Assembly (NCBI GenBank): GCA_937132085.1 | Contig: CAKZNV010000205.1 | Location: 1-40,800, forward strand | Direction: 5' to 3' | DNA: 40,800 nucleotides | DNA from: an uncultured Rubritalea sp. | GTDB taxonomy: Bacteria; Verrucomicrobiota; Verrucomicrobiia; Verrucomicrobiales; Akkermansiaceae | The notes under the pieces: generated by a model | The model's database searches: none | What the model was told of the DNA's origin: nothing | Seen by the model: the letters and a program-made list of their open reading frames with translations, nothing else | In this document: piece after piece, positions 156-11,124 of the stretch | Position numbering within the stretch: the stretch's first letter is position 1 | Layout: each line of letters opens with the position of its first letter | Made by a program: the position numbers and the translations under genes

Positions 156-1760
156 TTGAGAACCGATAATGACTCTATCTCATACACTCATGATCTGTAT
201 AAGCAAGCCGTCTTGGGTTTAGCTGATTTATCGAACAGCAAACAAACCTACGCTACTATCGCTAGAATAATGTATAAAGAGCAGAACTATGTGAAATCAA
301 TGTGTTTTTGGCATTTAGCTGAGCACAACGAGAGATCCATGGTTTGTAAATATAAAGCTTTTAATAGATATTACGATCAATCAAATACATCTGAAGCATT
401 TGAATTAGCTGACACTCTTTTCGAGCAACTTGATAAAGTTAGAATCAATCCAAATAAAGAAAACACCCTTTTATGGAGGCTCGCTAGCACAAATCAAGCA
501 GCCGGTATTTTAGAAAATGCTGTTAAATACTATAAACGATATTTAGCCAATCATGGATTCAAAATAGGTAAGAGGCACAACTTTCTCATTCTGTTGTATT
601 ACTTTTTCCCGCATAAAAAGCTCAAAACATCTCAATCCTTTGCCTCTTCTAAATATGACAGATTCTCCATTGCGATCATGTGTATCATTGATTTTGTCTC
701 ATTTCAGGACAAACCTCTAACCATTCTAAAAAACGTAACATTAGCCCATCAGATCAACCTTCAAAGCTCCAAAAAATCTCATTATAAAGGATTTACCTAC
801 CTATTTATAGCCTTCTACTACTATCCTTTGGTAAAAGAGCGTGGAACAAAAAAATTCATCCGATTTGCTGAAGAAGCTTCAGCAAATTCAGAAGCTAATT
901 TAGCCGACTTTTGTTTTCTGAAGACTCATTACTACATGTATTCAAAAAACTGGGCTAGCTATTTGAAGGTGCTAGAACATGATTATAACGCATCTATTCT
1001 AGATGGTGATCACGTAGTAGCGGCTCGAATCAGCATGCTCAAATGCGTTATTTTATTGGATTCAGGCCAAGCCCATCAGGTATTAATCTTCTTACAAAAT
1101 GAAGTGAACACACTGATACAATATCTACCTATATGGTTTAGAAGTTGGATTAACCAGCTGAGATATTCCATTTACTTAGAATTGTTCCATCCGAGTAAAT
1201 TGATTTTTATCAAACAAGACAAAATCCCTCACGAGATCAAGGCTGGCGCTTATTTGTTTTTTTCTCATGCTGAGGCCAGTCTCGGTAATTACCATAAGTC
1301 ACTAGAGTATTTGCAACTAGTTCTCCTGTATTTTTCACAAATGCAGTTTTTGAATCAATCGTTCACCATTTGTATTAAATCCTTCGTAGAAACCCCCATC
1401 ATTCTTTACTCCAATGGCTATATCTCTAAAAAGATTTTTAAGAAATTTATACGCTGTGCCAGATTTCATGGAAAATTTGTCTATCGATCCAAACCACTCA
1501 TTGATGGCTATGAAGGTATCATCAACTTACTTTCTTCTAGACCCACCAATGGCAGAGCAATATTAGAACAAGCATGCCAAGACGCTGTTATCCGAGGTAA
1601 CTACTCGGCTAACAGACTATTCAGACTGCATTTGCTCTATCTTTATGGGACTAAAGTAGAGCTACACCCTCAGCCATTTGAAGGTGAATTAGTAAGAGTT
1701 CAAGCTATTTGGAAGAACTCAATTCATCAGGCTCACCCAGACTTTTTAAGTATTCTATAA
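156..1760 (+). CDS. STAND/AAA-type ATPase C-terminal remnant with TPR-like helices
   Basis: The first residues (LRTDNDSISYTHDLYKQAVL) match the end of the winged-helix region of STAND/AAA_16 ATPases, where a 'SFxHDLxREAV' motif precedes the TPR repeats. The remaining ~480 residues are helical and TPR-like without a recognised catalytic motif. No Walker A or B is present, so this is not a complete ATPase. The TTG start at 156 lies inside a conserved motif; the frame is open back to 63, where TAG at 60-62 closes it, and a TGA lies further up at 33-35. The gene is therefore probably a 5'-truncated or frameshifted remnant, or an internal piece of a longer gene broken near the window edge. Its 3' end overlaps the convergent cytochrome gene by 56 nt. 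Family assignment is inference from one motif and the repeat-like helices. Confidence 0.55.
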   Translation: MRTDNDSISYTHDLYKQAVLGLADLSNSKQTYATIARIMYKEQNYVKSMCFWHLAEHNERSMVCKYKAFNRYYDQSNTSEAFELADTLFEQLDKVRINPNKENTLLWRLASTNQAAGILENAVKYYKRYLANHGFKIGKRHNFLILLYYFFPHKKLKTSQSFASSKYDRFSIAIMCIIDFVSFQDKPLTILKNVTLAHQINLQSSKKSHYKGFTYLFIAFYYYPLVKERGTKKFIRFAEEASANSEANLADFCFLKTHYYMYSKNWASYLKVLEHDYNASILDGDHVVAARISMLKCVILLDSGQAHQVLIFLQNEVNTLIQYLPIWFRSWINQLRYSIYLELFHPSKLIFIKQDKIPHEIKAGAYLFFSHAEASLGNYHKSLEYLQLVLLYFSQMQFLNQSFTICIKSFVETPIILYSNGYISKKIFKKFIRCARFHGKFVYRSKPLIDGYEGIINLLSSRPTNGRAILEQACQDAVIRGNYSANRLFRLHLLYLYGTKVELHPQPFEGELVRVQAIWKNSIHQAHPDFLSIL

Positions 1761-4347
1761 GAGCTCTCTTTTCTGGCTCTGTAAAATCCACACCAAATTC
1801 ATGTCCATGGTTCACCCCTTTTGCTTCGAATGTATAGGTTACTAATTTTGCTTCCTTTGTATTTCTATCATAAACATACCTACGAACATCTTGATTCTTT
1901 ATCTCCGTATCTTCGCCTCTGCTAAAATAACCTAGATTCTTAGTATCATAGTCACGAGAGCCTACATAGAACTCGGGTTCACGCTCACTAGCAGGAAGTA
2001 AGAGCTGATAGATAGTTCTTACTGACCCATTATGCAAATATGGTGGACTAGCCCAGACTCCATTGAGTGGTCGTGCCATATAACCTTCAGATCTTTTCCA
2101 TATGATAGGTTTTGGATTGTAACCATCTCTGTAAATGAAGCGGCCTACATTTGTCTCATGAAGCTCAGTAGCTCGTTGCAAAGCCCCCGCTTTACCAGAT
2201 AGAGACTTGAATGCTGCTACTCTATCATCAAAGTTGGTATCATTATAGAATGCCCAGCGCTTTTTATCAGTGCCCACTTTATAGATATCCACCCTTTTTC
2301 CTGCCTTATTTTCATGACAAGTAGCACAGGATGAATTGTGCTCTTTCTGATTACCATCTGCGTCTTGATACAAATACTTGAACTCTTTATTATAAAGTTC
2401 CTTACCTTGTTCAGCTAACGTTTCAGAGTAATGCTGAGGAAATAGTTCAGAAAATGTCGGGATTTTAATCCTGCTATAAAACATTTCAGCTTCATGCACT
2501 TTATCCAGATCTACTCGCGTTAAGAGACTACCTCGCACTAGTGTATCACTCCTGAGAGTCTGATCATCTACACCCACCAATGCTCCAATCGCCAATGCTT
2601 GCAACATATTACGTTGCATCATCGTATTCGTATTACCATCTATATGAAAATAATATTCATTCGTATAACTAGCACTAGCTGTCAAACGCTCATCCTCTAT
2701 TGCTTTCAACTTAGATCGATAATAAAGTGAGTAGCTATATAAATTAGGTATTTTTACCGGAGCTGGCTCACCAAGATAAGATTCTCCAGTCTCCGCAACC
2801 AATCTACTAAGAATATTCCAGGCATCATCTCTACCTGGACCAAAACCTCCACCATTCTTAGTATTATCAAATTCATCTAGTTTCTCTATGATCTTAAGAA
2901 TCTGTTTACTAAAAAAAGTTTGCTCTTGTAACAGCCGATATAACTTCAACAATGAACTATTCGCTTCTAGAGCTCGTTCATTAGGATCTACTATACTTTC
3001 ATTATCACAAAGCGCAGTCTTGTTCCAATCTATCCAACCGTTATCATCTCCCTCTTCAGGGGTTAGTAGATTCTCCAATCGTTTACTACCTGTTTCATAT
3101 GTCTCGTCAGCATCGAGAGCTTGCTTTTTAAGCTCGCTAAGATACGCCTTGTTGAAATCTTCAGTGTCAAATACTTTACCCTTCATCGTTGCATCTAAGG
3201 ATTCTTCTATCGCCTTAGATCTCGCGTATTGTCGTATATGTTCTGCAATTTCATTTAATTCCTCAATAGATAAATCTACTCCACTAGTTGGAATATCTTT
3301 AGTAACATACTTAGTTTGCTTAATATCTTCATCTAACTTTTTAAGATAATCAACAGTCACATCTTCAGGATTAAAGTAAGCTGGTAAATTTTCATTTTTA
3401 ATAGCTCTCATCAAAAATAAAATAAGCTTTGATTTATCAACCAGAGTAGCCTGAACAGAATCGTTAATGTATTTAGCCCACTCCATAGGGTAAACAAGAT
3501 TTCCAGCCCCATCTACATTATACAGTTTCCCATCCACTCTCATCCTTCCTGTATGGCAAGCCGCACAGCTCATCGTAGAAACATCTTTATTCCCTACTAG
3601 TGTGTGTGTGAACCCTATTGGTAGCCCATATTTATTATATTTACTTACTCTACCATCTAAAAAACCATAGAGTTTCATATCATCTATTAAAGGCTTACCT
3701 GAGTGAGCCCCCTCAAGATTTAGTAACACGAATAATGCTAGCTGATCAGCTCCTTGATCAATATGCCTAAAATAGCCAGCGCCTTCATTCAAGACAAGGT
3801 CTTCCCCTAAAATAGGAGGCTCCCTATCCTTTTCTGAAATAAAGATATATACTATTAACCCGACTAACGCTAAACAAGCAGCTCCAATATAGTAGTAATC
3901 GTAACGATTCAACTTAGCTTTCACTGGGCAAGGTTTCTCTAAGATAGCGTCTGCATCTGATTTAGATAATCCAAGTATGCTTCTTCTCTTTTCGCTAGAG
4001 CCACCGAGCATCACTTTAGCATAATTTTTAAAACCCAATGAATACTTAGTCTCACTGCCAGCCCAGGGGAAATCGATCTTATGGATCTCATCGCAGTCAC
4101 TGCATTTAAGTGTCGGGAATTTTGCTGTGATCACACTTTTATAACTAGAAAGATCTAAATGACGCCAATTCTGAACATTACTGTCTATTTCTTCTAGATC
4201 CGATTGACAGTGATAACACTTATTATCATCACAGCCATAGTTCACATGGATCAGAGCTTCCATTTTAGATTCATCAAAAACTACGTTTTCTAGCTCCCAG
4301 TGCTCATCACCCTCAAAGATAGAATTGTCAAATTGATCTACATTCAT
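1705..4347 (-). CDS. Di-haem c-type cytochrome with N-terminal ISL3-like zinc finger/HTH and one TM anchor
   Basis: 880 residues in three parts. Residues ~17-137 resemble the zf-ISL3 plus HTH region of ISL3-family transposases: Cys pairs C44/C47 and C82/C85, the motif WRHLDLSSYKS between them, then PWAGSETKYSLGF and a predicted HTH (~110-135). No DDE transposase domain follows. Residues ~151-170 form one membrane segment. The rest is an exported di-haem domain with haem motifs CAACH (261-265) and CATCH (674-678), GPGRDDAW (~503-510), DGNTNTMMQRN (~570-580) and a late PPYLHNGSVRT motif. These are typical of the RoxA/di-haem cytochrome-peroxidase-like class. Expected topology is zinc finger in the cytoplasm, haems in the periplasm. 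It is the last gene of a five-gene minus-strand locus, 77 nt after the synthase gene. Enzyme activity (peroxidase, oxygenase or sensor only) cannot be read from sequence. Confidence 0.85.
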   Translation of the reverse strand: MNVDQFDNSIFEGDEHWELENVVFDESKMEALIHVNYGCDDNKCYHCQSDLEEIDSNVQNWRHLDLSSYKSVITAKFPTLKCSDCDEIHKIDFPWAGSETKYSLGFKNYAKVMLGGSSEKRRSILGLSKSDADAILEKPCPVKAKLNRYDYYYIGAACLALVGLIVYIFISEKDREPPILGEDLVLNEGAGYFRHIDQGADQLALFVLLNLEGAHSGKPLIDDMKLYGFLDGRVSKYNKYGLPIGFTHTLVGNKDVSTMSCAACHTGRMRVDGKLYNVDGAGNLVYPMEWAKYINDSVQATLVDKSKLILFLMRAIKNENLPAYFNPEDVTVDYLKKLDEDIKQTKYVTKDIPTSGVDLSIEELNEIAEHIRQYARSKAIEESLDATMKGKVFDTEDFNKAYLSELKKQALDADETYETGSKRLENLLTPEEGDDNGWIDWNKTALCDNESIVDPNERALEANSSLLKLYRLLQEQTFFSKQILKIIEKLDEFDNTKNGGGFGPGRDDAWNILSRLVAETGESYLGEPAPVKIPNLYSYSLYYRSKLKAIEDERLTASASYTNEYYFHIDGNTNTMMQRNMLQALAIGALVGVDDQTLRSDTLVRGSLLTRVDLDKVHEAEMFYSRIKIPTFSELFPQHYSETLAEQGKELYNKEFKYLYQDADGNQKEHNSSCATCHENKAGKRVDIYKVGTDKKRWAFYNDTNFDDRVAAFKSLSGKAGALQRATELHETNVGRFIYRDGYNPKPIIWKRSEGYMARPLNGVWASPPYLHNGSVRTIYQLLLPASEREPEFYVGSRDYDTKNLGYFSRGEDTEIKNQDVRRYVYDRNTKEAKLVTYTFEAKGVNHGHEFGVDFTEPEKRALIEYLKSLGEPDELSSSK

Positions 4348-4424
4348 AACGAATAGCTTATGATATATAGTGAACCATCAGCAAGGGTAATTCTCCTTCA
4401 CAGAGTCTTTCCAAGTATGCAACT

Positions 4425-5369
4425 CTATCTAGATTTAAAAAGAGAGCTCACTAGTAATTTATAAACCTCATTCCTAGTGATGATCTTCTTATTCTTAAAT
4501 TCCTCCCAAGTAAGATGCCGCATCTTAGAAAGATACAGCAACCCTATTCTAGCAGGCATACTAATACCTATTCTCAGCTTATAGTTGTTCAAACTCTTCG
4601 CATATTTCAGTCCAGATTGAAGCCCTAACTCTATTTTATGAATGAGTTTCTGACCATTCTCATAGATAGCCGCCTCGGATAACTCATTATCGACAGGAAC
4701 ATAAAATCTCTGGTTATCAAAATCCTGTTTAACATCTCTCAAGATATTTAAATAGTGCAGTGCATTTCCATAATCTCGACCAAGTTTACATAAGGTCGCT
4801 CTTTCTAACTTCGAGTAATTTTCACCTTCTAAACTAATGTCTGTCCAGAACTCTCCAACAACCCCAGACATTTGATACACATAAGAGCCCAGCTCCTCCA
4901 TGCTAGTTAATCTGTATACCCCCGTTTCATTTAAAGAATCTAGTTCTTCTTTCTGTTTCAGTAAAATACACTTCACTACCTTTTCAACATGCCCTCTTTG
5001 AGTGTCAGAAAGCTCAATATAATAAGCCAATATTGACTTCAGTTTTTTAGCCAAATGCAATTCCGCTTCAGACTCAAACTTCAGTAATGTTAGATCACTA
5101 ATTTCTACACTTCCACCTCCATTGATCGCATTCTGAAAGGAATTCTGTAGAGCGATGAAGGCCTTACTTCTCTTTATAGCTGTCTCACCATAGGCATCGA
5201 CAATACTATCCCCCAGCTTAGCCAATAGATAAGCGATTAAAATAGGTTTCTGCTGCTGCTTAGGCAAAAGATAGAAAGTAATCGACAAGCTCCTAGAGAT
5301 GGACTTGACCATGGATTTAAAATCCTTGTCATCCATTGTATGAACTCTATCGTCAGCTATTGATTTCAT
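4425..5369 (-). CDS. Squalene/phytoene synthase family protein
   Basis: 314 residues, the usual length for trans-isoprenyl head-to-head synthases. The first aspartate motif is DSIVD (54-58) in the context LLPKQQQKPILIAYLLAKLG. The second is DVKQD (212-216) in the context YLNILRDVKQDFDNQRFYVP, with the typical YVYQMSGVVGEFW segment near 163-175. These acidic motifs bind the Mg-diphosphate groups of two prenyl diphosphates; family members make squalene, dehydrosqualene or phytoene. Which product is formed here is not decidable. Its ATG overlaps the stop of the upstream protease gene (ATGA, 5366-5369), so the two are translationally coupled. It sits between secreted proteases and RoxA-like cytochromes rather than with other carotenoid or hopanoid genes, which is unusual. 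Confidence 0.85.
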   Translation of the reverse strand: MKSIADDRVHTMDDKDFKSMVKSISRSLSITFYLLPKQQQKPILIAYLLAKLGDSIVDAYGETAIKRSKAFIALQNSFQNAINGGGSVEISDLTLLKFESEAELHLAKKLKSILAYYIELSDTQRGHVEKVVKCILLKQKEELDSLNETGVYRLTSMEELGSYVYQMSGVVGEFWTDISLEGENYSKLERATLCKLGRDYGNALHYLNILRDVKQDFDNQRFYVPVDNELSEAAIYENGQKLIHKIELGLQSGLKYAKSLNNYKLRIGISMPARIGLLYLSKMRHLTWEEFKNKKIITRNEVYKLLVSSLFKSR

Positions 5370-6364
5370 AAGTTATTAATCATATCCTTTAAATGATGAA
5401 TGGGTATAAAAGACTGAAGTATGTTTTCAGACTCCTCTGGGTATTTATAAAGATTCCCATTTTTAAAATCTTTCTTCTTACCTGCTACATAGAGCCCTAT
5501 TAGCTCAATCTCCGGAAATGAAAATACTGGCGACCCTGAATTCCCATGAAAAGAATCTAATGAACATCTATAACTTTTACCTCCTTCTATACCTCCTTCT
5601 CTATCTCTCAGCTCTTTCAGAACCTTTCCCTTCATCGCGATAGTCATAGGCATCCCATCTGGATGACCAATCATAGAAAGTCTCATATTTTTCTGCACGC
5701 TTTTACGTGAAATTTCCAGTATCTTGGCATTTGACACTGGTCTATCCAGTTCTATCACACACCAATCAGTTGACAGCTTTGTCTCTACACTTCCTTTTCC
5801 TAATGCGACTATGCTCGATGCTTTATAAACTTGCTCTGGTGACACTTCCTCCATCACTCCAGTAAATCCGTTATATACTAATGAAGCCTCATCTGATGAT
5901 AAATTATAATCAAAAATAAATCGTAGTTCATCAAAATTGGCTCTTTCGACTACATGTCTGGCTGTTAGCACTTTATTCTCACTTATTAGAAATCCAGTGG
6001 AACTACGAAACTCTTCATCTTTAATTATTGCTGGTATTGATGCCATCTGTTGACCTTCATTCAAATTTTGAACATGCTGATACGGTTTTGTAATCGGCTG
6101 ATCATTCACTATCTTATTTATATTAATAACTAAACAAACACCCTTCCCTTCTTCATACAATTCTTCTATAGCTTGCTCTATAGTCCCTTCTGAGAGATCG
6201 GGGTATAGTTTTGTAATTTTTTTCTTAAAATCAACAGAATTATATAGAGCTAAATCATTAGAACCTATTATAGCTTGAACATCTAGAGTTGGTAAAGACG
6301 TAGTTGAAACTGAAACACAACTAGGTAGAAGTAATAGTAAAGATAGAATCGGATATTTAATCAT
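5366..6364 (-). CDS. Trypsin-like (S1/V8-type) serine protease, lipoprotein
   Basis: 332 residues. The N-terminus is a lipoprotein signal (LSLLLLLPSC, lipidated Cys at 16). The peptidase domain has a complete triad: His137 in TARHVV, Asp200 in STDWCVIELD, Ser276 in SFHGNSGSP. The GNSGSP form is typical of V8-like/HtrA-like chymotrypsin-fold proteases; no PDZ domain is visible. It is expected to be anchored in the envelope. It is paralogous to the upstream gene at 6415-7689, sharing PAIIKD/PSIIKD, GFLI, HPDGMP, SLDSFHGNSGSP and LIGLYVAGKKKD segments. It overlaps the synthase gene by 4 nt. The substrate is unknown. Confidence 0.85.
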   Translation of the reverse strand: MIKYPILSLLLLLPSCVSVSTTSLPTLDVQAIIGSNDLALYNSVDFKKKITKLYPDLSEGTIEQAIEELYEEGKGVCLVININKIVNDQPITKPYQHVQNLNEGQQMASIPAIIKDEEFRSSTGFLISENKVLTARHVVERANFDELRFIFDYNLSSDEASLVYNGFTGVMEEVSPEQVYKASSIVALGKGSVETKLSTDWCVIELDRPVSNAKILEISRKSVQKNMRLSMIGHPDGMPMTIAMKGKVLKELRDREGGIEGGKSYRCSLDSFHGNSGSPVFSFPEIELIGLYVAGKKKDFKNGNLYKYPEESENILQSFIPIHHLKDMINNL

Positions 6365-6414
6365 AATGTTTTTTGTTATTTAGAATTTTTTACATAATCT
6401 CTCGATCTTAAGAA

Positions 6415-7689
6415 TTACAATTCATTTATAATACTAATCAAGTGGCTGATTGAAGTAAATGACTGTATAATTTTATCAGAATTTTCTTCTGATCTAGTAA
6501 TTGCATTATTACGAACATCTTTTTTCTTACCTGCCACATAGAGTCCAATTAGCTCAAAATTAGGATATGTGAATATTGGTGAACCAGAGTTACCATGAAA
6601 AGAATCAAGAGAACATTGATAGCTATGATTAAAAGAACTAGGACCACTCAGTAGTTTGCCTTTCAGAGACACGGTTAGTGGCATCCCATCCGGATGACCA
6701 ACCATCATCAGTTTTTGACCATGATTGATTTTTCTGTCAGAGATTTGAAGAGTCTGACTAGATTCTACTATCCTATCTAGCTCCAGAATACACCAATCAC
6801 GTGTCCTATCTTTAGCATAGCCATCCCCTCCTTGATTCACAACTCTACTTACTTTATAAACATCACTGGATCTAACTCTTTGTGCTTTTAGTGGATTGTA
6901 ATGACTCAGTTTATAGTTAAATATAATCCTTAGATCGTCTAAGTTTACGTCTTTAATAACATGCCTAGCCGTGAGAATTCTATTTTCACCGATTAAAAAT
7001 CCAGTAGCATTTCTGTAATTACCATCCTTAATGATAGAAGGCATATTGAATAGAGGCTCAGTGTCTTTTAATTTATGAATCTTTCCATAGGGAGCTGTAA
7101 GTGGCTGGTTGTTAAATAACTTATTTTTAGAAGTAATTAAACACACACTTTTAGAAATACTGGTGATTTTAGATTCTAGATCGTTCCGTGCAGGTTTACC
7201 TAAATTAGGATAAGCTTTCCCTACTAGTGCTGGTAAAACAGCAGCATTCACTGGCGCTGTATCATCATCCCCTACAATATGGCTATCTCCATTCAGATCC
7301 TTGAGTCTTAATAAGGGCTTCGATCCTAATTTATGCTCAAAATCTATTTCCAGCTTATAACGGCCAAGCTCCTCCATTTGTAGTGAAATATCACGGTCAA
7401 TTCGTTCCAAGTTTAGCCTAGAATTCTGAGCTCTTAAATCTGAAATATTTCCAGATGATTGTCCTGGATTAAATTCACCACTAAAATTTGATAAGTTTTT
7501 AGCCTGTGGACTCAGCATCTCTGGTGGAGCAAACTCTGAGAAACTTTCAATAGTCGGTTCACTCAATTGAGCTTCTTGCGAAATCATTTCCGCAGCATTT
7601 TGATCATTTCTAGATTCTGGTGGTTTTTGTTCTTCTTCCTTAGAACAAGAAAAATGAATGAGGCATAATAAAAGTATGATATATTTCAT
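6415..7689 (-). CDS. Trypsin-like serine protease, lipoprotein, with long linker
   Basis: The preferred start is the ATG at 7689, giving 424 residues. It is followed at once by the signal MKYIILLLCLIHFSC with lipidated Cys15; the longer frame to 7728 adds 13 residues that do not fit a signal peptide. Residues ~16-150 form a polar, Glu/Pro/Ser-rich linker absent from the smaller paralogue, ending in a short LKDLNGDSHIVGDDDT segment. The peptidase domain has His243 (TARHVI), Asp298 (TRDWCILELD) and Ser368 (SFHGNSGSP). Its closest visible relative is the next gene (5366-6364), so this looks like a tandem duplication followed by divergence. It lies 48 nt after the 681-aa cytochrome gene and 50 nt before its paralogue, consistent with one operon. 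Confidence 0.85.
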   Translation of the reverse strand: MKYIILLLCLIHFSCSKEEEQKPPESRNDQNAAEMISQEAQLSEPTIESFSEFAPPEMLSPQAKNLSNFSGEFNPGQSSGNISDLRAQNSRLNLERIDRDISLQMEELGRYKLEIDFEHKLGSKPLLRLKDLNGDSHIVGDDDTAPVNAAVLPALVGKAYPNLGKPARNDLESKITSISKSVCLITSKNKLFNNQPLTAPYGKIHKLKDTEPLFNMPSIIKDGNYRNATGFLIGENRILTARHVIKDVNLDDLRIIFNYKLSHYNPLKAQRVRSSDVYKVSRVVNQGGDGYAKDRTRDWCILELDRIVESSQTLQISDRKINHGQKLMMVGHPDGMPLTVSLKGKLLSGPSSFNHSYQCSLDSFHGNSGSPIFTYPNFELIGLYVAGKKKDVRNNAITRSEENSDKIIQSFTSISHLISIINEL

Positions 7690-7737
7690 AGGGTAATTGG
7701 GTTGAGTTTTGTAATTATTGAGAACCAAAGGTCATAA

Positions 7738-9783
7738 TTATTTTTCTTCTGGGTCCCCTAGAGTCTTGATGTATTCGATGAGATAAAGCTTCTCTTCATC
7801 ACTAAGCTTCGTTCCATATTCGTGGCCCACATTGATTCCATCTACATCGATTTTGTATGTAGTTAGCTTCCCTTCTACATAATGTTTAACATCTTTGTTT
7901 TTATCATCTCCGTAGTTTTTATATCCTAGGTTTTCAGTATCATAATCTCTCGTTCCTACGTAGAAGCTCTTCTCACGTTGTGCTGCTGGTGTAAGTAGTT
8001 GCTGGATTGTTCTAACTGAACCATTGTGTAGATACGGAGGACTAGCCCATACTCCATTGAGAGTTCTAGCCATATAGCCTTCACGAGCGTTGAACCATTG
8101 TGGATTTTCCATCTCGTAGCTACCTCCTCCTGAGTCTCCACCATTAGCGATAATTCTATTGAGCGATAGCCGGTAAACGCTAGCCGTTTTTAATTCAATT
8201 GATTTCAGAACTCCCTCCCTAAGCTCCTTCTTTTCTTCACCATTAAAGAATCGCCACCTTTTAGGATCAGTTTTTACATCTCCTATAGGTATCATTTTCC
8301 CTTCAGGACGGTCATGACAACTCAGGCAATTTTGAGCAAAAATAGCTTCTCCTTTTTTTGCATGATCAGGATTAAAATGCTTAGGGAAAATTTTGCTGAA
8401 ATTAGGGATTTTGATCTGCTGGTAATACATATCCGCATTATGAATCTCATCAATTTTAGCTTCTGATTCATACCCTCCTACATGGTTTGGGCTACTCAAC
8501 GCTCCTACAGCCATGGCTTGTAAGTAGTTTCTCTGCATCAGAGAATTTGTATTTCCATCATAATGAAAATGATACTCTCTTGAATCTGTGCTCTTAGTTC
8601 TAGAGTAATAGGAATAGGAAAATAAATTAGGAATTTTGGTCGGCGCTGGTTCAAAATGCTCCATTACTACATCTGTATTACCACCAACAAGAGCTCCTAG
8701 AACAAACCAAGCATCATCTCTTCCTGGACCGATATTACCAATTTTTTCTATTACAGGAAAAGCCCTATCTGCATACTGTTTCTGGGATAACAATAATTTC
8801 AACAAACTGCTCGAAGACTTCGAAGTGTTACTCCATTTATCTGGAACCAAGAGCTTCTCTGAATTTTGACAGAAGTCAGAGTCTGAATATTTTTTATAGT
8901 AGCTAGTTTTAGCCTCTAATTCATCTTTAAAGAAATCAACATTATCCTCGTTACCTTCTTCATTGTAGTAGTCTTCTAGGATTTTCTTTTTCTTGAGTAA
9001 TTCTTTCAAATACACCTCTTGAAACAATTCTTCAGTATATTTCTCACCGCTGATTGTCTTTTTCAGCATTTCAGCTACTGCTTGAGAACGAGCTAATTCA
9101 CGAGCCTCATCTTCCACCATCTTTTGCGATTCTGCGCTCATTACTCCATTACTATCAGAGGACACAGGTCTTTCGACAGGATCTTTCCCAAATTGCGACT
9201 GGATTTTCTCTATGTCAGCCACACTTGTATTTTCTGGTGTGTATTTTTCTGGTAAGTCATTATTTTTCATTAGACGTATCAGAAAACCAAGCAGCTTAAC
9301 CGGATTCTTAAGATCATCGATAGAATCATTAATAACATGCGCCCATTGACCTGAACTCGTCAAATTACCACCACCTTCTACATTATACAGCTGATCATCG
9401 ACTCTGATTCTCCCTGTGTGGCAACTGGCACAGTTCATCGAACTAATCTCATATTTGCCATGCTGCGCTACACCTATTCCAAGCGGCAGTCCATGAGGAT
9501 TTTCAGTAGTCACAGGTTCTACCAAGAACCCAAAATGTTTCATTTCTTGAATAAGCGGTTTACCTGAATACTTGCTATAAACATTTTTCAAAATGAATAA
9601 AGGAATCTGCTTCGCTCCTTGATCTCGGTGGCGATTTGCTTCAGTCCCTTTATTCTCCACTAACTCCTTCGCCTCTTCTGTTGGCGGTGGTGGGGGTGGG
9701 TCAGGCCAGATAATATAAGTGCCCACTGACACAACTGGCAAGACAGCTAACCATTTTATTTTGGAAGAATTATTTTTAGACAT
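7738..9783 (-). CDS. RoxA/cytochrome-peroxidase-like di-haem c-type cytochrome
   Basis: 681 residues, close in length to the rubber oxygenase RoxA class. An N-terminal membrane segment (~10-26) is followed by a Pro-rich stretch (27-34). Haem motifs are CASCH (118-122, within NCASCHTGRIRVDD) and CLSCH (486-490). Other class motifs are GPGRDDAW (352-359), DGNTNSLMQRN (409-419), SPPYLHNGSVRT (581-592) and a late GHEYG (His654), which could supply a distal haem ligand. It is homologous along its length to the exported part of the 880-aa protein at 1705-4347, including the RHxDQGA and GYMARxLNGVWASPPYLHNG blocks, but lacks the zinc finger/HTH. It probably heads the five-gene locus. Whether it acts on polyisoprenoids, peroxide or something else is unknown; classification by motif only. 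Confidence 0.85.
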   Translation of the reverse strand: MSKNNSSKIKWLAVLPVVSVGTYIIWPDPPPPPPTEEAKELVENKGTEANRHRDQGAKQIPLFILKNVYSKYSGKPLIQEMKHFGFLVEPVTTENPHGLPLGIGVAQHGKYEISSMNCASCHTGRIRVDDQLYNVEGGGNLTSSGQWAHVINDSIDDLKNPVKLLGFLIRLMKNNDLPEKYTPENTSVADIEKIQSQFGKDPVERPVSSDSNGVMSAESQKMVEDEARELARSQAVAEMLKKTISGEKYTEELFQEVYLKELLKKKKILEDYYNEEGNEDNVDFFKDELEAKTSYYKKYSDSDFCQNSEKLLVPDKWSNTSKSSSSLLKLLLSQKQYADRAFPVIEKIGNIGPGRDDAWFVLGALVGGNTDVVMEHFEPAPTKIPNLFSYSYYSRTKSTDSREYHFHYDGNTNSLMQRNYLQAMAVGALSSPNHVGGYESEAKIDEIHNADMYYQQIKIPNFSKIFPKHFNPDHAKKGEAIFAQNCLSCHDRPEGKMIPIGDVKTDPKRWRFFNGEEKKELREGVLKSIELKTASVYRLSLNRIIANGGDSGGGSYEMENPQWFNAREGYMARTLNGVWASPPYLHNGSVRTIQQLLTPAAQREKSFYVGTRDYDTENLGYKNYGDDKNKDVKHYVEGKLTTYKIDVDGINVGHEYGTKLSDEEKLYLIEYIKTLGDPEEK

Positions 9784-9939: not shown

Positions 9940-9970
9940 ACTTTCTCATTACATGATTTGATGAGAAAGT
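9940..9970. repeat. 10-bp perfect inverted repeat across the kinase stop codon
   Basis: ACTTTCTCAT (9940-9949) and ATGAGAAAGT (9961-9970) form a perfect 10-bp stem with an 11-nt loop containing the kinase stop codon. There is no T-run on either side, so it is not a typical intrinsic terminator. It could protect the 3' end of the transcript or bind a protein. Confidence 0.5.
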
Positions 9971-10743
9971 TCCCTTATCATAGAAGCGTATTCAGACAGC
10001 TTTTCCTCAGTGACCTTTAGCTCATACCACTTTTTAGCTTCCTCCTCACTGAGGTGCCGCTTCATATTGGCTAACATCATGGTCACACCGATGATCTCGG
10101 GACAGAGAATATCATGTAGCTCATGCCCTAACTTGACATTACTCTCTGAAAAATCATCACTCAGCCCCTTGATGCTTGGTATATCGATCACTACGACAGT
10201 TCCACTTGAATCCGGCTTATCTAGCCATTGAACTGCCCCATTAAATTTCTCCACTCGGGAGCGCATGTTACCGATTCCTTTGCCATTCTTACTAGTGATT
10301 GATTCGCTCATCCCTATGCCATTGTCTGCAATCGTTATTTTCAGCCCCTCATCTTGGTAAATGACTAATATCTGAATCATCCCCGCTTTACCATGCTTCA
10401 CAGCATTACTACATGCCTCCTGCATCACGCATGCCAGCTCATTCTGGACAACACACGGAAGTGCTATTTTCTCTCCGAGCTCATTAAATGTCACCACCAT
10501 CCCCATAGAGTCATGACGCTCTCTAAAACCGTTTGTCCATTCTTCAAGAGTCTGTTGATGAGTCCTACATTTTACATTAGCTACTGTCTCTGTCAGATTG
10601 TTCATCATCATCCCCAAAGTAAAGCTCGGTTCATTATTCACCGCATCATCTTTCCACCTTTCGAGTTTTTTAGATGCAGACACAAGAAACCCCTCGAGCT
10701 CCTCGAATAAATGTTGCACTGATTGGTAGATAGCTTTGTTCAT
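9949..10743 (-). CDS. Histidine-kinase-like protein, HATPase domain before a HisKA_3-like helix pair
   Basis: 264 residues, no membrane segment. The N-terminal ~75 residues are helical. A HATPase_c domain follows, with N-box QEACSNAVKHGKA (N113), G1 box DNGIG (140-144), G2 box GKGIGNMRSRVEKFNG and GTVVVIDIP. After it comes a segment HELHDILCPEIIGVTMML (His207/His210) that looks like the phospho-acceptor helix of NarL-type (HisKA_3) kinases, ending in RELSHQIM. In normal kinases this helix pair comes before the ATPase domain. The C-terminus therefore looks either permuted or cut off before a second ATPase domain. The start ATG overlaps the stop of a 56-codon ORF (ATGA). No response regulator gene is adjacent; the nearest DNA-binding protein is the divergent XRE gene at 11288. 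Confidence 0.75.
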   Translation of the reverse strand: MNKAIYQSVQHLFEELEGFLVSASKKLERWKDDAVNNEPSFTLGMMMNNLTETVANVKCRTHQQTLEEWTNGFRERHDSMGMVVTFNELGEKIALPCVVQNELACVMQEACSNAVKHGKAGMIQILVIYQDEGLKITIADNGIGMSESITSKNGKGIGNMRSRVEKFNGAVQWLDKPDSSGTVVVIDIPSIKGLSDDFSESNVKLGHELHDILCPEIIGVTMMLANMKRHLSEEEAKKWYELKVTEEKLSEYASMIRELSHQIM

Positions 10744-10910
10744 TTTAATGAAGTGTAGGCTAGAGATGAAATCATATCTATTGAATTAGTCTCTGAATGC
10801 TCTGCTACAGGCATCAGGGAATTCCTCGGTGAATTAAAATGTCTCAGCTCCTTCGCAGTCTCTCTTGAGAGTCTTATTATGGAACGAGCGTCTGTTTCAG
10901 ATAATGTCAT
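10740..10910 (-). CDS. Small coupled ORF, 56 aa, unknown
   Basis: An ATG ORF of 56 codons begins MTLSETDARSIIRLSRETAK and ends TSLK. Its TGA overlaps the ATG of the histidine-kinase-like gene (10740-10743). The overlap and the even amino-acid composition argue that it is translated; the product matches no family I know. No clear Shine-Dalgarno sequence was found. It could be a short regulatory peptide, or simply a leader that couples translation into the kinase gene. Confidence 0.4.
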   Translation of the reverse strand: MTLSETDARSIIRLSRETAKELRHFNSPRNSLMPVAEHSETNSIDMISSLAYTSLK

Positions 10911-10965: not shown

Positions 10966-11124
10966 TTATCGCACCTTATAGCCACTCGTTTCGGCTTGTT
11001 TACACAGGCTTTCTAATCGATCTCCAGCTACTAATCTAATAGCAGGCACACCACTCTCCTCCAATGCTTTTAAGCATTGCATCAGAGTTATTAGCACTAC
11101 CTGTCTGTAATCGTGTTCGTCCAT
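10966..11124 (-). CDS. Small ORF, 52 aa, unknown
   Basis: An ATG ORF of 52 codons begins MDEHDYRQVVLITLMQCLKA and ends SGYKVR. It is 55 nt upstream of the 56-codon ORF and in the same direction, so the three ORFs (11124 to 9949) may form one transcript divergent from the XRE gene. The helical, charged composition looks protein-like, but no family is recognised and the coding call rests on ORF integrity and position only. Confidence 0.35.
   Translation of the reverse strand: MDEHDYRQVVLITLMQCLKALEESGVPAIRLVAGDRLESLCKQAETSGYKVR

Follow-up and report, generated by a model that had tools for sequence, protein, structure and literature searches.

Di-haem cytochromes occur as a tandem of paralogues in the periplasmic oleate diol synthase pathway of P. 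aeruginosa, in which PA2077 and PA2078 (FadCcp) are 43.4% identical to each other (PMC4496055). Both proteins keep Phe (F269 and F260) at the position of RoxA F317 (PMC4496055 Table 1), and in RoxA the haem-bound oxygen is stabilised by F317 and F301 (PMC6797691). The window analysed here, a stretch of 40,800 nucleotides from an uncultured Rubritalea sp., contains a di-haem paralogue pair of similar identity (approximately 43%), which appears from gene spacing to lie in one operon, is predicted to be periplasmic, and shares the PY.HNGSV motif. In contrast to PA2077/PA2078, the two cytochromes are separated by proteases and a squalene/phytoene-synthase-like gene, are predicted to be membrane-anchored, and carry a residue other than Phe at the F317 position. 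Judged by its published description, the P. aeruginosa pair would be the best functional analogue. The first-pass annotation of this DNA knew of no described system with this gene set, and none was found in our literature search. All findings come from a single metagenome-type assembly of 254 contigs (98.7% complete, 2.6% contaminated), which is probably a metagenome-assembled genome (MAG), judging from its fragmentation and from its relatives being MAGs.

Organization of the five-gene run

According to the ORF list, five genes lie in a run on the minus strand, with the transcription order cyt2, tryp2, tryp1, SQS, and cyt1. cyt2 (7738..9783) encodes a 681-aa di-haem cytochrome with a predicted membrane anchor; tryp2 (6415..7728; PF13365, 52.6 bits) and tryp1 (5366..6364; 332 aa; PF13365, 55.6 bits) encode trypsin-fold lipoproteins; SQS (4425..5369; 314 aa) encodes a divergent squalene/phytoene-synthase-like enzyme (PF00494, 73.2 bits vs a cut-off of 26); and cyt1 (1705..4347) encodes an 880-aa protein in which an ISL3 DNA-binding module and one membrane helix precede a di-haem cytochrome predicted to be periplasmic. 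The spacings of cyt2/tryp2, tryp2/tryp1, tryp1/SQS, and SQS/cyt1 were 9, 50, −4, and 77 nt, respectively, and the tryp1/SQS junction is a 4-nt ATGA overlap. The Pfam cut-offs were passed by both cytochromes (PF21419; 54.6 bits for cyt1), by both proteases, and by the fourth gene. Every ORF was thus found where the first-pass annotation had placed its five same-strand genes with gaps of 77 nt or less and one 4-nt overlap. Its statements that the end cytochromes are homologous (43% identity), that the lipoprotein proteases are homologous (44% identity), and that the synthase-like gene is coupled to a protease also held.

A promoter scan gave no excess over shuffled sequences, terminator-like sites showed only a modest excess over shuffles, and scans for Rfam and tRNA features detected neither. 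A clear AAGGAG motif precedes a nine-codon mini-ORF (TTGCTGATG...TAA) at 4348-4400 (minus strand), immediately 5' of cyt1, and, unlike this mini-ORF, the ATG of cyt1 itself has no AAGGAG-type motif. The mini-ORF may be a leader or allow re-initiation. On the same strand as cyt2, 165 nt upstream of it, lies a gene (9949-10743) for a soluble GHKL histidine kinase that has no sensor domain and carries a HisKA_3-like part after the ATPase. Small ORFs are located nearby at 10740-10910 and 10966-11124, and the 56-aa ORF overlaps the kinase start (ATGA). At the contig edge, a plus-strand frame (63-1757) resembles the C-terminal TPR part of a STAND-type protein; it is convergent with cyt1, overlaps the end of cyt1, and gave no family match over the cut-off.

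The two proteases have the features of exported lipoproteins. tryp1 contains a lipobox-like LLPSC sequence and the triad H137/D200/S276, and the His-Asp-Ser triad columns are invariant across the three protease paralogues of the genome. The listed start of tryp2 is TTG, but an ATG 39 nt further in gives a better signal peptide, and this internal ATG (MKYIILLLCLIHFSC) is likely to be the true start. The third paralogue, on contig C199 (L074, 45-3772), is a protein of 417 aa in which no signal peptide was seen, and its gene is located between a response regulator gene and a FadL transporter gene. The C199 locus is also AT-rich and includes an NB-ARC/STAND gene that is truncated at the edge of the contig. 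When C199 and C205 were tested as the two sides of a single broken STAND gene, no overlap was found between the contig ends. A role in anti-phage defence was rejected, since the proteases are exported lipoproteins and PADLOC returned no match to a defence protein over the whole length, only weak protease-domain matches of up to 44 bits.

SQS is a second copy, in addition to a separate housekeeping copy on C171. Both DxxxD motifs are kept (GDSIVD and RDVKQD). SQS reached at most 46.1 bits against a cut-off of 278.6 in the squalene synthase, HpnC, HpnD, and CrtB equivalog models, and the housekeeping copy of the genome was likewise below the cut-offs of these models. SQS-like genes are common; the one in the window sits on a long branch, and no close partner groups with it. 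Inspection by eye of the genome's PF01593 proteins turned up no recognisable carotenoid desaturase, and a carotenoid role of SQS is therefore not supported.

Family and active site of the cytochromes

cyt1 and cyt2 show 43% identity over positions 13-680. Both belong to the subfamily of di-haem cytochrome c peroxidases described by NF040606: they scored 218.1 and 221.1 bits, respectively, against a curated cut-off of 150, and have the same haem motifs, whereas the N-terminal ISL3 fusion of cyt1 is foreign to the subfamily. The first haem motif is CAACH in cyt1 (residues 261-265; 3553..3567, minus strand) and CASCH in cyt2 (residues 118-122; 9418..9432, minus strand), and the second is CATCH in cyt1 (residues 674-678; 2314..2328, minus strand) and CLSCH in cyt2 (residues 486-490; 8314..8328, minus strand). 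Each protein has, besides the two CxxCH motifs, PYLHNGSV and a C-terminal GHE His, which aligns to the axial His H641 of RoxA.

These proteins had been termed RoxA-like, which is valid at the level of the fold (PF21419, two CxxCH, PY.HNGSV, and the equivalent of H641) and does not extend to RoxA, RoxB, or RoxC themselves, because the models of these three gave only 43-65 bits for cyt1 and cyt2 against curated cut-offs of 900-1000. RoxA (4b2n) was aligned through the active site to a nine-sequence profile, and the pairing of residues was read off this alignment (accuracy 0.80). The position of F301 is occupied by a His conserved in this cytochrome group (H407 in cyt2 and H568 in cyt1), that of W302 by Y408 and I569, and that of F317 by V426 and I587, respectively. 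Some of these RoxA residues are absent from RoxC proteins as well, and the two RoxC proteins tested had no rubber activity (PMC10837239). Since the scores are far below the cut-offs and F301, W302, and F317 are replaced, cyt1 and cyt2 are, by sequence, not rubber oxygenases, and this identity was rejected.

Another reading is modification of a protein substrate, in which the di-haem enzymes would, like MauG or MbnH, oxidise residues of a partner protein, perhaps of the lipoprotein proteases. Membership in the same superfamily, the MauG motif PYLHNGSV, and the His at the F301 position, which would allow peroxidase-type chemistry, are consistent with such a role. However, the cytochromes are RoxA-sized and far larger than MauG, no precursor peptide was seen, and the MbnH-family model gave 12 bits against a cut-off of 363. 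We regard protein modification as very unlikely.

The ISL3 module of cyt1

Membrane-bound regulators of the ToxR/CadC type have a cytoplasmic DNA-binding domain, one helix, and a periplasmic domain. cyt1 would have the same layout if its predicted topology is right; in contrast to these regulators, its putative DNA-binding module is of the transposase type and its periplasmic domain is a di-haem enzyme. cyt1 is 200 aa longer than cyt2, mainly because a module corresponding to the DNA-binding part of ISL3 transposases, which the first-pass annotation did not mention, precedes the membrane helix. The module (residues 14-138; 3934..4308, minus strand) consists of a Zn ribbon and an HTH and matched NF033550 (ISL3 transposase) with an E value of 7.8e-8 and an intact ISL3 transposase with 4.5e-15 in phmmer. 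The Pfam domains of this transposase are the Zn ribbon (61-105), the HTH (110-161), and the DDE domain (from 176), and the match to cyt1 stops at residue 159; cyt1 has thus captured the DNA-binding part minus the catalytic domain. The DDE_Tnp_ISL3 domain was absent from cyt1 in Pfam and NCBIfam searches, and the membrane helix and the cytochrome take its place, unlike in ISL3 transposases.

All four Zn Cys residues (44, 47, 82, and 85) are kept. The module retains 14 of the 19 columns that are invariant in seven transposases and matches the majority residue in 22 of 105 variable columns. There is no stop in the cyt1 reading frame over the module, compared with 12 and 24 in the other two frames. 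A GTG (residue 142) or a TTG (residue 146) could start the cytochrome without the module. The membrane helix (residues 148-171; 3835..3906, minus strand; hydropathy peak of 2.33 at residue 153) has positive residues on its N side. Because the helix is single and is preceded by Lys/Arg residues, the predicted topology puts the ISL3 module in the cytoplasm and the haem domain in the periplasm. A structure prediction of cyt1 from five sequences had a pLDDT of 37.5, and no reading is based on that model.

No other sampled genome contains an ISL3-cytochrome fusion. Other matches to the module in the family were open frames of 140-444 aa, and those examined were ISL3 transposases or fragments of them; the ISL3 copy of the genome itself is frameshifted and is located on a different contig from cyt1. 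cyt1 may be a regulator anchored in the membrane and linked to redox state or lipids, or else a captured remnant. Both DNA binding by the module and a regulatory role are putative. The specific proposal that the periplasmic haem domain acts as a sensor of redox state or of an oxidised lipid, with the cytoplasmic ISL3 module regulating transcription, possibly that of its own operon, seems improbable.

Distribution and proposed joint function

The five-gene set was present in no other genome among 387 Verrucomicrobiota and 260 family genomes, and the cluster is a one-off in the sampled genomes. At the threshold used, five other genomes of the 260 in the family had a cytochrome match, with 29-48% identity over partial stretches and 29-39% in the best long matches. 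Neither a PF00494 gene nor a protease gene was near the cytochrome in the family loci opened, and a scan of the genome_contigs set yielded only three cytochrome loci, none with partner genes. Within the 387-genome phylum sample, the protease subfamily was confined to the present genome. Cytochrome relatives were not detected in viral contigs; on plasmids, they were found in Rhizobium, Bradyrhizobium, and a few others, and protease relatives were on four plasmids, but none of the plasmid regions opened combined cytochrome, protease, and PF00494. On rhizobial plasmids (L070, 7803-16244; L071, 7692-16558), a related serine protease was observed with C25 peptidase, ferritin-like, and radical SAM proteins. 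Nowhere was a cytochrome relative found adjoining a PF00494 gene. The first-pass annotation had proposed a system built in the envelope and a neighbourhood search as its check. An envelope location, the homologous pairs, and operon-like spacing hold, whereas one built system is weakly supported and conservation speaks against it: the condition that the annotation had named as refuting, scattering of the genes in close relatives, came out against the proposal, the relatives having a lone cytochrome. Since no other sampled genome carries the set, a joint function rests on one MAG.

The locus is AT-rich, with a GC3 of 0.25-0.39 vs mostly 0.45-0.55 in the neighbouring housekeeping genes, which fits acquisition or a distinct island. 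It is probably lineage-specific or acquired. The low GC3, the lack of a conserved neighbourhood in relatives, and the very long branch of SQS would all be expected if unrelated acquired or duplicated genes without joint function had come together by chance in an AT-rich island. On the other hand, the genes share one strand, a 4-nt coupling, and two paralogous pairs within one run, and the cytochrome and protease families are linked elsewhere by FadL. A coincidence is doubtful, and it is nearly as likely as the oxidation of a lipid or isoprenoid that we tentatively favor.

The link through FadL is seen in relatives. In both G008 (same genus) and G021 (same family), two LuxR-type regulators and a FadL/OmpP1 transporter come after the cytochrome homologue, as assigned with Pfam for the G008 copies and with PF03349 for the two genomes. 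This conserved block spans L046 276-4877 and L045 9872-14654. The two Akkermansiaceae genomes contain only two (one of them partial) and four FadL genes in total, respectively. FadL beside the cytochrome in relatives and beside the third protease suggests hydrophobic substrates, the link between the two families being a weak one. These neighbours would suit oxidation of exogenous fatty acids or hydrocarbons by the cytochromes in series, as in P. aeruginosa oleate diol synthesis, with SQS incidental. The tandem of paralogues at 43% identity resembles PA2077/PA2078 (PMC4496055), and on a Rhizobium plasmid (L073, 7197-15226) tandem di-haem cytochromes lie with a third cytochrome-like gene, a GMC oxidoreductase, and a patatin phospholipase. 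However, Val or Ile replaces the Phe that PA2077/78 have at the F317 position (PMC4496055), and no FadL is inside the five-gene run; we consider this activity rather unlikely.

We tentatively read the locus, with low confidence, as an AT-rich, lineage-specific operon, probably acquired, that would serve lipid oxidation in the envelope. Both di-haem enzymes, members of the cytochrome c peroxidase/RoxA superfamily with a membrane anchor, would be exposed to the periplasm and would oxidise a hydrophobic, unsaturated compound, most likely an isoprenoid from the operon's own second SQS-like enzyme, or else an unsaturated fatty acid. The two lipoprotein proteases would act beside them, and the ISL3-type module of cyt1 in the cytoplasm would let the periplasmic state feed back on transcription. 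We infer this substrate class and joint function from the operon-like spacing, the conserved haem sites and axial His, the FadL neighbours, the tandem PA2077/PA2078, and the retention of the catalytic Asp motifs in an SQS that is present in addition to a housekeeping copy. Against the lipid-oxidation operon, SQS matched no product-specific isoprenoid model, and no cytochrome relative adjoins PF00494.

Should the genes be no more than neighbours, the locus would be an ordinary AT-rich island. A working fusion would represent bacterial transposase domestication into a transmembrane regulator with a haem-enzyme sensor; we know of no report of such a regulator. In addition, the presence of a second SQS-like gene next to di-haem oxidases would point to a substrate class of a large and mostly uncharacterised cytochrome family.
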